From: Acidobacteriota bacterium
Lineage (GTDB): Bacteria > Acidobacteriota > Aminicenantia > JBFLYD01
Assembly: GCA_040756905.1 (NCBI GenBank)
Contig: JBFLYD010000030.1
Location: 1 to 42,035, forward strand
Length of the DNA: 42,035 nt
Direction: 5' to 3'
A program made the translations under genes and the position numbers. The notes under the pieces were generated by a model. That model searched no databases. It saw only the letters and a list, made by a program, of their open reading frames with translations, and was not told where the DNA came from. Shown here in pieces: positions 10,143-15,278 of this stretch; position 1 is the first letter of the stretch; the number at the start of each line of letters is the position of its first letter.

Positions 10143-11468
10143 ATGAGAGTGCTGGTTGTAGGAAGCGGAGGAAGGGAACATGCTCTTGCATGGAAAATTT
10201 CTCAGAGTCCTCTTGTGGATAAAGTTTTCTGCGCGCCTGGAAATGGAGGGACTTCTGGGGTGGCTGAGAATGTTGACATTGAGTCATCTAAGATTTTCGA
10301 TTTAATAGAATTTGCTAAGAAAGAAAAAATTGACCTCACGGTAGTGGGACCTGAGCTTCCTCTTACGCAAGGAATAACAGATGAATTTCAGAAAAATGGG
10401 CTTAAAATATTTGGTCCCACACGTTCAGCTTCCCGGCTCGAGGGAAGCAAAATTTTTGCCAAAGAATTTATGAAAAAATATAACATTCCTACGGCTGACT
10501 TTGAAATTGTGTATTCTGAAGATGAGGCTGTAAAAATTATTTCTTCAGAAAGATTTAAATTCCCGTTACTTATAAAAGCTGATGGTCTGGCTGCAGGAAA
10601 AGGCTCAGTAATATGTAATGATTTTAACGGAGCTCGAAATACAATTGAGTTAATGATGAAAAATAAAATATTTGGCGAGGCTGGAGAAAAAGTTGTAATA
10701 GAAGAATTTCTATCTGGTCAGGAGGTTTCATTTATAGTGGTATCAGATGGGGAGAAAGTTATTCCCCTTGTGACTTCCCAGGATCATAAGAAAATCTTTG
10801 ATGGTGATAGAGGCCCTAACACAGGAGGAATGGGAGCCATTTCTCCTTCTCCATACATAACTAAAGAAATTTATTGGGAAATAATGAGTAAAACAATAAT
10901 ACCAACCATCCAGTACATGAAAAAAGAGGGAAATGAATTCAGAGGTGTTTTATACGCAGGTATGATATTAACTTCCGATGGACCCAAAGTTCTTGAGTTC
11001 AATTGCAGATTTGGAGATCCTGAAAACCAGGCCATTTTAATCAGAATGGAAAGTGATTTAATGGAACTTCTGATTGGTGCGGTTGAAGGAGATATATCAA
11101 AATCGCAAGTTAAATGGAGTAAGTTTCCATCAGGTTGCGTTGTGGTTGCCTCTAAAGGATATCCGGATAAATATGAAACAGGCAAAATCATTAAAGGACT
11201 GGATAAAGCTTCATCGATTAAGGGAATTGAGGTGTTTCATGCTGGAACGAAAAAGAAAAATTCTGAGTTTCTCACATCAGGAGGAAGAGTATTAGGAGTT
11301 TCAGGATGCGATGAAAGTATGTCTTCTACCATGGAAAAAATATACAGAGCGATATCAGTTATCTATTTTGAAGGGATGTACTATAGAAAGGATATTGGAA
11401 AAGGTGTTGAACGGGAGGCTCGCCGCAATCCCGCCCCTTCAGGGGCAGGTCAAGGCGAGCAATATTAA
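10143..11468 (+). CDS. purD: Phosphoribosylamine-glycine ligase
   Basis: PurD is an ATP-grasp ligase that joins glycine to phosphoribosylamine in purine synthesis. It opens with MRVLVVGSGGREHALAW, the family signature. It has the ATP-grasp region around LIKADGLAAGKG and the DRGPNTGGMGA loop, and ends with the usual YYRKDIG element. I chose the ATG at 10143; an in-frame GTG at 10134 lies inside the ribosome-binding site AAGGTG. The C-terminus is odd. After KGVERE, where other PurD proteins stop (E. coli ends ...WRAVEREQ), about 16 residues (ARRNPAPSGAGQGEQY) are encoded by a palindromic repeat shared with the mtaB 3' end. It is followed by purE after 95 bases. Confidence 0.95.
   Translation: MRVLVVGSGGREHALAWKISQSPLVDKVFCAPGNGGTSGVAENVDIESSKIFDLIEFAKKEKIDLTVVGPELPLTQGITDEFQKNGLKIFGPTRSASRLEGSKIFAKEFMKKYNIPTADFEIVYSEDEAVKIISSERFKFPLLIKADGLAAGKGSVICNDFNGARNTIELMMKNKIFGEAGEKVVIEEFLSGQEVSFIVVSDGEKVIPLVTSQDHKKIFDGDRGPNTGGMGAISPSPYITKEIYWEIMSKTIIPTIQYMKKEGNEFRGVLYAGMILTSDGPKVLEFNCRFGDPENQAILIRMESDLMELLIGAVEGDISKSQVKWSKFPSGCVVVASKGYPDKYETGKIIKGLDKASSIKGIEVFHAGTKKKNSEFLTSGGRVLGVSGCDESMSSTMEKIYRAISVIYFEGMYYRKDIGKGVEREARRNPAPSGAGQGEQY
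11407..11460 (+). repeat. Palindromic repeat absorbed in the purD 3' end
   Basis: The stretch beginning TTGAACGGGAGGCTCGCC matches the stretch after the mtaB stop (13313 onward) with only a few changes over about 42 bases. It folds as nested stems: an outer GCTCGCC (11418-11424) with GGCGAGC (11454-11460), and an inner CCCGCCCC-TTCA-GGGGCAGG. In the purD copy the frame stays open across the whole hairpin. In the mtaB copy the TGA stop lies in the repeat's first bases. Confidence 0.75.
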
Positions 11469-12071: not shown

Positions 12072-13316
12072 ATGAGATTTTCAGTATATAATTTTGGGTG
12101 TCGAGCTAACACATCTGAAGCATTTCAATGGGTAGAATCTTTGACGGAGAATGGATATAAGTTTGAAAAGAATTTCGAAGATTCTGACATCGTGATAATC
12201 AATTCATGCACATTAACTTCAAGAGCTGACAGAGATGTAAAAAATTTAATAAAGAAAATTAATCAAAAGGATAAAAAAGCCAGGGTGGTTTTGACAGGAT
12301 GTTATCTCCAGAGAAAACCAGAGGAGTTGGAAAGACTTGGTGAAATATTTTTAAAAGTTTTAAATGAAGAAAAAGATTCAATCCCTCAAAAAATAATTGA
12401 TACATTCGGAAAAAAACAAAATGGTTCAAAAGTAGTTTCTTATCGGTCAAGGGCGCTTGTTAAGATTCAGGATGGGTGTAACTTAAAATGTTCTTTTTGT
12501 ATAATTCCATTGGTAAGAGGGAAAAGTAGAAGCATTCCATCTGAGGAGATCATAGAAAAAATAAAAAAATATTCTGATGAGGGATACAAAGAGATAGTGC
12601 TCACCGGAATTCACATAAATTCCTGGGGAATAGATTTCTCACCAAAAAGAAAACTTTCAGATTTGATTAGAGAAATAAATAAAATAAATTCAGTCAATTA
12701 TATGAGGCTGACCTCGCTGGATCCCAGATTTTTAAATGAAGAAATGATTGAAACTTTAATTTCCTCTGAGAAAATAGCTCCCCATTTCCATCTTTCTATT
12801 CAGAGTGGCAGCGAAAAAATTTTAAAGTTGATGCGAAGGGATTCCATTGCAAAAAGATATGAAGATATTATTTATAAGTTAAAAGAAAGCCTCCCTGAAA
12901 GCTGCGTGGGTGCTGACATCATTGTCGGATTTCCAGGAGAAATAGATGAAGATTTTAGACGCACATACGAGTTTGTTAAAAATGTTCCTTTAGATTACCT
13001 TCATGTTTTTCCTTTTTCTCCGAGACCTGGCACAGAGGCTTCTAAAATGAATAATAAAGTTGATGAGAAAGTAAAAACCAGAAGAGCTTCTCTATTGAGA
13101 AAATTATCCAGGGAGAAAAAAGAAAAATTTATTAGAAATTTCATGGGCAAAGAGCTTGAGGGGGTTGTAATCAGAAATAATTTCGATAGCGGAGAAGTTC
13201 TTACTTCTAATTACATAAAGGCAAAAGTTATAAACTTAAAAAATAGAGAGAAAGAGCTAACAAAGATCAGGATTGGAAAGGTTCAGGATGGAATTGTTTG
13301 GGCAGAATCAATTTGA
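12072..13316 (+). CDS. mtaB: tRNA t6A37 methylthiotransferase MtaB
   Basis: MtaB is a methylthiotransferase that converts t6A at tRNA position 37 into ms2t6A. The UPF0004 cluster cysteines are C10, C46 and C77. The radical SAM CxxxCxxC is C136, C140, C143 (QDGCNLKCSFCIIPLVRG). The short linker between the two domains and the motif YNFGCRAN favour MtaB over MiaB. The length of 414 residues is normal. The ATG lies four bases after the purE stop (TGA at 12065-12067), so the pair is co-translated. It ends in the first bases of a palindromic repeat that also forms a terminator-like hairpin. Confidence 0.93.
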   Translation: MRFSVYNFGCRANTSEAFQWVESLTENGYKFEKNFEDSDIVIINSCTLTSRADRDVKNLIKKINQKDKKARVVLTGCYLQRKPEELERLGEIFLKVLNEEKDSIPQKIIDTFGKKQNGSKVVSYRSRALVKIQDGCNLKCSFCIIPLVRGKSRSIPSEEIIEKIKKYSDEGYKEIVLTGIHINSWGIDFSPKRKLSDLIREINKINSVNYMRLTSLDPRFLNEEMIETLISSEKIAPHFHLSIQSGSEKILKLMRRDSIAKRYEDIIYKLKESLPESCVGADIIVGFPGEIDEDFRRTYEFVKNVPLDYLHVFPFSPRPGTEASKMNNKVDEKVKTRRASLLRKLSREKKEKFIRNFMGKELEGVVIRNNFDSGEVLTSNYIKAKVINLKNREKELTKIRIGKVQDGIVWAESI

Positions 13317-13332
13317 ACGGAAGGCTCGCTGA

Positions 13333-13358
13333 AATCCCGTCCCTTCAGGGGCGGGGTT
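13333..13358. terminator. Bidirectional hairpin terminator, mtaB / radical SAM gene
   Basis: An 11-bp stem, AATCCCGTCCC with GGGGCGGGGTT (two G-T pairs), closes on the loop TTCA. It lies between the convergent stops of mtaB and the radical SAM gene. On the plus strand it is followed by CTTCAATAGAATTTTT, so the T-run is delayed. It is part of the repeat shared with the purD 3' end. Confidence 0.6.
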
Positions 13359-13360
13359 CT

Positions 13361-14611
13361 TCAATAGAATTTTTCCTTCCACTCCATTGGGTCAAGGGGA
13401 ATGTTAATTTTCCTCTTTTTCATTTTATACTTGAAGTATGGCTTTGCGAGGATTTTCAACACATTCATTTTGAAGTTATAGATATAGTATCTAAGATCCC
13501 TTTCAACAAGATATTTTGCATCAGCGGGTAAGACAACGAGACTTACTTCAATATTCGGAACAATCCCTGTAGGGATATTTTTTTTAATGCATGATTTATA
13601 GAGATATCTAAATACAACATACATATCCTCATAGGATGGAGAAGGAAAATCTTCCATGTCAGCTCCAATTACAGGTCTAAAAATGCATACAGTGGGAAAT
13701 GCTCCAGTATCAGTTATGTAGTCTATTGCCTTTAGAGTATCTTCTATCGGTTCAACCCCTGCGATTATTTCACCCGATGCTTTCCCTTTTCCCATTTTTT
13801 TTGAAGTGTGTTCGAGGGCATCAAAAAAGGTCTTCTGTCTGACAAGTTTGAATTTTCCTGGAAGGAATTTTTCGAAGTACTCAGGATTGTGAAATTCATA
13901 GCAATATGAGAAATGATCAGCTCCTAAATCTATGAGCCAGTCGATTTTCCATAGTTCTCTTGGTGGAATCAACTGGACACCGACTAACACTCCAACCTCT
14001 TCTTTAAGGGCTTTCACATAAGGAGCCATTACCTCAGCATCTCTTCCACTGTTATAACCCGAGTTTAAATGAACAAATGTAATCTTTGATTCTTCTTTTG
14101 CTCGAGTGGCAGTCTCCACTACATCTTCGATCTTTTTTTCAGCTACCTCATTAACTCCAACGTTCAACCCTGTTGTGCAGAATTTACAATTCATCGGAGG
14201 ATCATAATACCAGAAGCCGCAGGAGTTTGAAACATAAATTCCAAGGTATGTTCCCTGCATAACTCCTATCATAGACATTAAAGTTTCAGAAGATGTTTTT
14301 TCATTGTACCACCTGGGTTCCTCTGGAATTTTAATCAAATATTTGAGATTATTCCTTTCATCTATCACAAAATAATCATCCTCTATTTTCTTGAGTAAAT
14401 AAGGTGAATTTTGAGCGAAGTCTTCTTCTACAGGTATGTTCGTCCATATATCTTTGAGCTTTCCAGGAATAATAACTTCCAATCCGCTTCCAAGCCCAGC
14501 CCTTGTCCTTGCGAATAGCCTTGCATCCTTGTCCAGAGTGCAACTTTCATCAATCCTGATTCCTTTGCAGAATAAATCTAACTGAAGCTCTCCTGGATTA
14601 AGTTTTACCAT
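13361..14611 (-). CDS. Radical SAM protein with CX10CX2C cluster motif
   Basis: The 416-residue protein has no family I can name. The likely cluster cysteines are C131, C142 and C145 in CGFWYYDPPMNCKFCTTG. This is a CX10CX2C arrangement, longer than the standard CX3CX2C, but with the typical aromatic residue before the third cysteine. Downstream pieces suit a radical SAM TIM barrel: a beta strand TFVHLNSGYNSGRD, then GVQLIPPREL, SYCYEFHN, ASGEIIAGVEPIEDTLKAI and VCIFRPVIGAD. An N-terminal domain of about 100 residues precedes it, and a basic C-terminal tail (YFKYKMKKRK) follows. The substrate is unknown. It is convergent with mtaB and shares the hairpin at 13333-13358. The ATG at 14611 has only a weak ribosome site. 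Confidence 0.8.
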   Translation of the reverse strand: MVKLNPGELQLDLFCKGIRIDESCTLDKDARLFARTRAGLGSGLEVIIPGKLKDIWTNIPVEEDFAQNSPYLLKKIEDDYFVIDERNNLKYLIKIPEEPRWYNEKTSSETLMSMIGVMQGTYLGIYVSNSCGFWYYDPPMNCKFCTTGLNVGVNEVAEKKIEDVVETATRAKEESKITFVHLNSGYNSGRDAEVMAPYVKALKEEVGVLVGVQLIPPRELWKIDWLIDLGADHFSYCYEFHNPEYFEKFLPGKFKLVRQKTFFDALEHTSKKMGKGKASGEIIAGVEPIEDTLKAIDYITDTGAFPTVCIFRPVIGADMEDFPSPSYEDMYVVFRYLYKSCIKKNIPTGIVPNIEVSLVVLPADAKYLVERDLRYYIYNFKMNVLKILAKPYFKYKMKKRKINIPLDPMEWKEKFY

Positions 14612-14681
14612 TTCTTTTTCATTAAGGTTTTTATTATAGCATAAAAATTCAGAACACGTCAGAATTTTTATTTAATTTTAT

Positions 14682-14727
14682 AAAGAGGTCAACCATCTTC
14701 TGAGCGAAGGGGATGGTTGACCTCTTT
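14682..14727. terminator. Perfect 16-bp stem hairpin with T-tract
   Basis: AAAGAGGTCAACCATC (14682-14697) pairs perfectly with GATGGTTGACCTCTTT (14712-14727) around a 14-base loop. T-rich sequence follows on both strands. For the minus strand it lies just after the unknown 135-residue gene and before the radical SAM gene, so it is a good candidate terminator. The arm word GAGGTCAACCAT also belongs to the dispersed repeat family seen at 16849, 24488 and 38414. Confidence 0.7.
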
Positions 14728-14753
14728 TTAGAGTTAAGGATTCAGCATAATTT

Positions 14754-15161
14754 TTATTCTGGTATGTCAAATGGAAACGACCTTCGGAATTTTTCTGGTC
14801 TATAAGAAGGGGAGAAACCTGACACGAGAAATTTTAGCCAAGATTTAATTTGATTTTCATCGGAGAATTCAGGTTTTACTTCCATACCGCCGTAGCTGAA
14901 TCTATCGCGACTATGGGGAATAAGGCTTTTCTTGTAGAAGAAACCAACCACTTTATCTTTATGGAAAAAGAATTTAATTATTCCTCTGTTTGGTTTACCT
15001 TTCACTTGATTATCTATAGAGATTTCAAATCCTGTTGCTTTTGGATGGATTTTATATTTTTCCTCCGAATTTCTTAAAATTTTTAACAATGTTTTAAAAA
15101 TTTCGCCTTTATCAGAATATTCCGTGATTTTTTCCTTTGCTTCTTCTTCATTAAAAATCAT
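14754..15161 (-). CDS. Unknown 135-residue protein
   Basis: I do not recognise a family. The predicted protein is soluble, without a signal peptide or membrane segment. It has an acidic, helical N-terminal third and a beta-rich middle (GFEISID, RGIIKFFFHKDKVVGFFYKK). The C-terminus is rich in aromatic and basic residues (SPSYRPEKFRRSFPF). I chose the ATG at 15161 because GAAGGAAAAT immediately precedes it; a TTG at 15203 in the same frame lacks a ribosome site. It is flanked by a terminator hairpin downstream and by an OmpA-type gene remnant upstream, so it may be a survivor of a rearranged locus. Confidence 0.6.
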   Translation of the reverse strand: MIFNEEEAKEKITEYSDKGEIFKTLLKILRNSEEKYKIHPKATGFEISIDNQVKGKPNRGIIKFFFHKDKVVGFFYKKSLIPHSRDRFSYGGMEVKPEFSDENQIKSWLKFLVSGFSPSYRPEKFRRSFPFDIPE

Positions 15162-15278
15162 ATTTTCCTTCAAGCGATTGAAAATAGAAAAAGATGTTAT
15201 CAAATTCTTTTTGTCAGATCAAAAATCTTGCTTTTTAATTCAGTTTCAATCAAATGAGATATTTTTTATTTTCGTCTA

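Follow-up and report, generated by a model that had tools for sequence, protein, structure and literature searches.

The minus strand of a 42,035-nucleotide stretch of Acidobacteriota DNA (hereafter the window, by which we mean the whole stretch that was analysed) carries a gene whose product has three cysteines in the arrangement CX10CX2C. An earlier note on this DNA had read the product as a radical SAM protein with an expanded cluster motif, had been able to name no family for it, and had seen no substrate gene alongside. The locus thus raises the question of (i) whether the protein is a radical SAM enzyme and, if so, of which family; (ii) whether the long first gap of its motif is peculiar to it; and (iii) whether it acts alone or together with the product of a neighbouring gene.

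The enzyme belongs to a catalogued radical SAM family

The gene (13361..14611, minus strand) is an open frame of 416 codons that runs from 14611 down to 13361; read on the plus strand, the same stretch contains many stops. Its product has cysteines at positions 15, 24, 131, 142, 145, 237, 309 and 341, and only C131, C142 and C145 (codons at 14177..14221, minus strand) form a CXnCX2C arrangement, with GFWYYDPPMN as the first gap. The earlier note had rightly singled out this trio as the sole suitable one. The three residues are invariant in 23 of 23 rows of one alignment (A1) and in 49 of 49 rows of another (A3).

The NCBIfam model NF045502 ('variant_rSAM') scores the protein at 165.7 bits against a cut-off of 125 and aligns to residues 7-341. 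A family can therefore be named where none had been suggested, for the N-terminal domain as well, although the model itself carries no function name. All 49 rows of A3 match NF045502 at E ≤ 0.001. The general Pfam model Radical_SAM, in contrast, reaches only 15.8 bits, below its gathering score of 29.5, and enzymes of this kind are therefore easily overlooked. Curated equivalog cut-offs are missed as well (PylB, 19.9 bits against 348.2; BioB, 11.6 bits against 225). Neither the HmdB nor the LipS2 profile matches the window's enzyme at E 0.001; LipS2 gives weak matches in 16 of 49 relatives. We thus assign the enzyme to a radical SAM family that is catalogued but has not been studied.

The second-best profile, TIGR04043 (MSMEG_0568), reaches 102.1 bits over residues 36-339, and an Acetobacter member of that family has a similarly widened motif, CX9CX2C; both would fit a Nit1C-type protein (MSMEG_0568/NitD) acting in nitrile or cyanide metabolism. 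The TIGR04043 cut-off, however, is 303.7 bits, and the annotated Nit1C neighbours at locus L169 (a Nit6803 family nitrilase, an N-acetyltransferase and an AIR synthase-like protein) are absent, by inspection, from the open reading frames of the window. On score and gene context we rejected this identity, which we consider very unlikely.

The widened motif proved to be common among relatives of the enzyme. Counted by a crude pattern over 101 loci, some of which represent the same genome twice, the first gap is 10 residues long in 91 loci, 11 in four, 14 in two, 8 in two and 9 in one, with one locus giving no match. All 25 relatives inspected (of 27 loci with a BLAST match, L026 and L002 being left out) have a gap of 10 to 14, and a gap of 8 is found in far members of the family, namely L019, L023, L026 and a Streptomyces plasmid protein. 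When five far members are included in an alignment, the residues that are invariant in 13 of 13 rows include, among the columns printed, C131, C142, C145, G152, G185, E239, G252, K253, G285 and E287, while C15, C237 and C309 are confined to the eight nearer rows. C237 and C309 lie on predicted strands (233-239 and 305-310) and, judging from the model, might serve as active-site thiols. The expansion of the motif is thus real, but it is no oddity of this protein: gaps range from 8 to 14 across relatives, QueE offers a precedent (see below), and, by the sequences compared, the long first gap is a stable trait of the family rather than a peculiarity of one member.

The predicted structure contains a radical SAM barrel

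A model of the enzyme based on the 49-row alignment (pLDDT 93.3, pTM 0.92) contains a radical SAM barrel. The earlier note had proposed structure prediction as a check and a fold without such a barrel as grounds for refutation; that objection falls away. Foldseek against the PDB returned 37 chains at E ≤ 0.001, which by manual count comprise 28 radical SAM enzymes and 9 other barrels, with AprD4, lipoyl synthase, RlmN and HydG heading the list. The top neighbour by VIA-align is lipoyl synthase 5exj (Z 17.2, rmsd 3.6, 243 residues aligned), and HydE 3ciw (Z 16.0), PylB 3t7v (Z 16.0) and biotin synthase 8vcw (Z 15.8) are further matches. In the model the three cysteines lie between strand 122-126 and helix 147-150, which is the expected site of the cluster loop. 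The protein thus combines a barrel of the SAM-enzyme type with three conserved CXnCX2C cysteines placed after the first barrel strand. Family profile, confident model and fold matches all support the earlier assignment, and the protein is almost certainly a true radical SAM enzyme, in which C131, C142 and C145 would be the ligands of a predicted [4Fe-4S] cluster.

The Pfam score below the gathering level might instead be taken to mean that the cysteines hold no cluster and that the protein is a degenerate barrel. The three cysteines and the GxE motif (G285, E287) are, however, invariant in all 13 rows, the five far members included, and the enzyme has dN/dS values of 0.04 to 0.16 across 10 pairs, some of them with dS near saturation. 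We regard a degenerate barrel as extremely unlikely.

A single protein of the window's own genome exceeds the NF045502 cut-off. In a sample of 297 Acidobacteriota genomes, 94 match the model, 82 of them over the cut-off, and in 60 genomes of relatives, searched with the protein as query, the own genome and one 20.6-bit match were the only ones found. Close to its own lineage the gene thus has a patchy distribution, which suggests loss or transfer. Contigs with relatives were collected with alignment A1, which found 219, the best 80 of these 219 being kept; the contig search with the single enzyme protein as query found none.

A small conserved gene adjoins the enzyme gene

Directly upstream of the enzyme gene, on the same strand and with 142 nt between the two, lies a gene for a small protein of no known family (14754..15161, minus strand), whose product has 135 aa when read from the ATG at 15161; a start at the TTG at 15203 would extend it to 149 aa. 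This conserved partner gene speaks against the statement that no substrate gene lies alongside, insofar as its product is a candidate for that role.

Comparison of the partner with Pfam, NCBIfam and PDB sequences gave matches of the chance type only (best E 0.054, in one or two of 22 members). Its model (pLDDT 90.7) shows a compact folded domain of two helices, a sheet and a further helix, for which Foldseek found no match in the PDB at E ≤ 0.001; the best VIA match has Z 5.9 (rmsd 3.8, 93 residues aligned). Mediator subunits and Fbxo7 were the top structural rows, but they fall within the range that the tool rates as common and do not establish a fold for the partner.

Residues M1, R59, K77, S79, S84, D86, R87, Y90, G91, P118, R121, P122, R127 and P134 are invariant in 22 partner rows. 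The conserved tail is formed by the last residues of the protein, at its extreme C-terminus, and is modelled less confidently (block means 83 and 67). Cysteine is absent from the window's partner. The partner family is under purifying selection, with dN/dS values between 0.11 and 0.37 across 10 pairs, of which some approach saturation in dS; because the values are low for the partner and for the enzyme alike, we take both to be real proteins under constraint.

Two features lie between the genes. One is a palindromic repeat (14672..14737) with 26-nt arms that are 88% complementary and 14 nt apart; a search of its own genome with the surrounding 71 bp gives 47 matches, counting the query itself and some sites matched in both orientations, so that the palindrome belongs to a family of dispersed palindromic repeats. 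The other, just upstream of the radical SAM gene, is a promoter-like site (14633..14662, minus strand; CTGACG-18-TATAAT, 10 of 12), a consensus match only and one of 13 such sites in the window against 7.0 expected from shuffles. With these two features between the genes co-transcription is uncertain in the window's strain, and there the enzyme and its partner may not be transcribed together.

A second dispersed repeat, a G+C-rich hairpin of about 43 nt with 16 matches in its own genome including itself, occurs at 13313-13355 and 11407-11449. One copy lies in the end of a purD-like frame, and the other, which lies directly behind the radical SAM gene, begins where the plus-strand frame 12072-13316 has its stop.

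The pairing is conserved across loci and phyla

When the window's partner frame was used as a tblastn query, the partner was found in 26 of 100 related loci (E ≤ 4e-8), always beside the enzyme gene; 80 of these loci had been picked by similarity to the enzyme, with 20 others added, and some stem from the same genome (e.g., L035 and L061). A partner profile, built from 22 of the pairs that it then recovered, shows the partner and the enzyme side by side at 27 of 101 loci, the window included. The pairs come from Acidobacteriota, Planctomycetota, Eisenbacteria and Latescibacterota.

The partner lies upstream of the enzyme in the window, in L072 and in G068, and downstream in the other loci; since the order varies while adjacency stays, adjacency is conserved independently of gene order. 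On one Eisenbacteria contig (L063:4999-6714) the enzyme and the partner form a single in-frame ORF of 572 aa, a natural fusion in which the conserved tail is retained. Furthermore, 12 of 25 separate pairs overlap by 4 nt in composition-based gene calls, which suggests translational coupling in these pairs. The pairing thus survives changes of gene order, spans phyla and has been fused once, and the enzyme and the partner probably work together.

Clustering of the neighbours, based on the same type of gene calls, found no third gene shared across lineages beside the pair: the enzyme cluster covers 101 loci, the partner cluster 25, and the next cluster at most 13. Some of the smaller clusters are local. 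One of them, an 81-aa ORF, lies near the enzyme in 10 loci (including L112:2817-3062; the closest eight at 119-419 nt) and is possibly a lineage-specific neighbour. Another, a 517-aa ORF, is found about 0.5 kb from the enzyme in 5 of its 7 loci; in 4 loci a 357-aa ORF is separated from the enzyme by 3-39 nt. On a plasmid of Streptomyces sp. NBC_00257 (L171:5773-7673), the gene for an NF045502 member with a gap of 8 overlaps by 4 nt with the next gene, whose product, a hypothetical protein of 193 aa, is perhaps a different partner.

Co-occurrence in whole genomes

In a sample of 294 Planctomycetota genomes, the enzyme is present in 60 (E ≤ 1e-30) and the partner in 12. All 12 of the latter also encode the enzyme, which shares contig and strand with the partner match and lies 50 to 89 nt from it, while the 234 Planctomycetota genomes without the enzyme gave no partner match. 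These 12 genomes also have the 12 highest enzyme scores of the sample, partly by construction, as A3 is rich in partner-bearing enzymes.

A small protein that adjoins the enzyme in 12 of 12 Planctomycetota partner genomes (11 of them already known) could itself be the substrate, the enzyme modifying its C-terminal tail or another residue to give an active modified protein. The conservation of that tail, in which R121, P122, R127 and P134 are invariant in 22 rows, and its lower model confidence agree with such a role. The natural fusion, however, fits a 1:1 subunit better than a substrate that is turned over; the partner is modelled as a compact folded domain rather than a leader-core peptide; and among neighbours compared by clustering no third gene is common to the lineages, so that no dedicated export or protease gene is evident. 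We therefore consider it rather unlikely that the partner is the substrate, and prefer to see in it a subunit that docks on the enzyme.

The Acidobacteriota sample of 297 genomes contains the partner in 12, of which 10 also contain the enzyme; the two genes are neighbours in 7 of these and lie on separate contigs in 3. The remaining two, G159 and G281, match neither enzyme profile; their completeness is 94% and 80%, respectively. Hypergeometric values for the co-occurrence are 7e-5 in Acidobacteriota and 2e-9 in Planctomycetota, ignoring kinship and sample overlap: 11 of the 12 Planctomycetota partner genomes and 4 of those in Acidobacteriota are loci already found via the enzyme, and G083 was also already known. 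Because the samples overlap with earlier loci and the partner profile was built from neighbours of the enzyme, these values flatter the pairing. Four genomes were newly reached via the partner, with the enzyme adjacent in G068 and G531 and none found in G159 and G281.

Conversely, 19 genomes in which the enzyme has no adjacent partner were searched for the partner (completeness unstated; they represent part of 32 such loci, L084 and 12 others being outside the 19). It was found elsewhere in the genome in 3, and 16 gave no match, so that the partner is not strictly required.

Away from the enzyme, the partner is found just behind a gene reading like cysteinyl-tRNA synthetase in L145, L146, L147 and L148, which are four genomes of one family. 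A distant partner homologue (L149:2281-2634, E 1.7e-15) lies two genes behind a QueD / 6-pyruvoyltetrahydropterin synthase-like gene, in a genome that gave no match with either enzyme profile.

These distributions bear on the possibility that the partner is an auxiliary factor (an electron donor, assembly factor or regulator) or a mere neighbour, and has no part in substrate recognition. Many relatives of the enzyme are without the partner, three Acidobacteriota genomes have it on a different contig behind the cysteinyl-tRNA synthetase-like gene, and two have it with no detected enzyme, all of which favours such a loose association. It is harder to reconcile with the fusion and with adjacency that is independent of order, and the window's partner has neither a cysteine nor a profile match to an electron carrier. 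We judge an auxiliary factor or chance neighbour to be rather unlikely, and again favour a docking partner that takes part in substrate recognition.

The partner marks one branch of the enzyme tree

Among loci L035-L054 the partner stands beside the enzyme in L036 only, and by sequence comparison the partner gene is a marker of one subclade of the NF045502 family. We computed a tree of 98 enzyme rows. It includes 31 rows with the partner adjacent, three of which duplicate others, and 48 rows labelled as not adjacent or undetermined, among them 13 outgroup rows and loci whose flanks are cut off. The 34 partner-bearing rows, of which 31 are distinct, all lie in one branch of 55 rows with an SH-aLRT of 88, which is below the starred level; the same branch includes 11 rows from partner-negative genomes and 10 of undetermined partner state. 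One old pairing followed by several losses would be the simplest reading of the enzyme tree.

We also scanned the enzyme for residues that track the partner, an exploratory analysis that covered all positions and in which the partner state is known for 49 or 50 of the 98 rows. The top twelve positions are 64, 153, 62, 318, 128, 154, 132, 202, 371, 130, 388 and 129, and eight of the twelve flank the cluster loop, within 62-64, 128-132 and 153-154. Every scorable row with a partner (33 of 33) has D64, as against 2 of 16 rows whose genomes gave no partner match when searched. In a tree-aware sign test a mean of 3.8 of 5 independent pairs behave as expected and none the opposite way, with a median p of 0.125. 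D64 is found, too, in five rows for which no partner is known: L044, L059, L064, L088 and L099. One of the five is an outgroup row, the flanks are cut off in L059 and L099, and the sister of L064 is a partner-bearing genome. We treat the apparent link between D64 and the partner as a lead only.

A putative two-protein system

The reading that we favour, with a probability of roughly 0.46 and hence somewhat short of even odds, is that an NF045502 radical SAM enzyme with one cluster forms a two-protein system with a partner that docks at its active site and presents the substrate. C131, C142 and C145 would hold one [4Fe-4S] cluster at the mouth of the barrel, in the usual place but with a longer first loop. 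The adjacent small protein would be the second component of the system; through its conserved core and C-terminal tail it would dock on the enzyme at the face where the cluster loop and the N-terminal domain lie and, once docked, would bind or present the substrate. Because the module consists of two genes only, in surroundings that otherwise differ and with no third gene recurring across lineages, the substrate would more likely be a rather common cellular molecule (RNA, protein or cofactor) than a metabolite specific to one pathway.

A more far-reaching proposal would be an as yet undescribed two-protein radical SAM system, conserved in at least four bacterial phyla, in which the partner is either a docking subunit or a protein substrate that is modified or used at its C-terminal tail, and which carries out a new post-translational or RNA modification. 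We put this forward as tentative and on the doubtful side. Many radical SAM families lack a known reaction; a compact two-gene module such as this provides a defined pair to co-express rather than an orphan enzyme.

Comparison with known systems

The closest relatives of the window's enzyme are the other members of NF045502, with which it shares the N-terminal domain, the barrel and the long first gap; the difference lies in the partner, which is limited to one subclade. LipA, HydE, PylB and biotin synthase provide the closest solved barrels (Z 15.8 to 17.2), but the window's enzyme misses the curated cut-offs. These four enzymes have CX3CX2C motifs. LipA contains, in addition, a second cysteine triad, CX4CX5C, which according to the cysteine list is absent from the window's enzyme.

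Proteins of the MSMEG_0568 / NitD type (TIGR04043) are homologous over residues 36-339, and the Acetobacter protein with the CX9CX2C motif also passes NF045502. The window's enzyme differs from them in scoring far below the TIGR04043 cut-off, in having no Nit1C genes alongside and in its gap of ten. One report describes the SAM proteins of Nit1C as related to biotin synthase-related proteins, COG2516 (PMC1199592), and NitD appears as a radical SAM domain protein in a listing within another (PMC8567248).

For the lengthened first gap there is a structurally characterized precedent in QueE, which is described as having a CX14CX2C motif, a solved structure with a canonical cluster and a reduced (beta6/alpha3) core (PMC4389238). 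QueE is absent, however, from the profile matches of the window's enzyme. Among open-licence papers in PMC, a search that cannot reach nameless proteins, we found none that names MSMEG_0568 or NF045502 and none that combines CX9CX2C or CX10CX2C with radical SAM. As far as these searches reach, the pairing of this enzyme with its small partner seems to be a two-protein variant, so far undescribed, of an enzyme of a known type.
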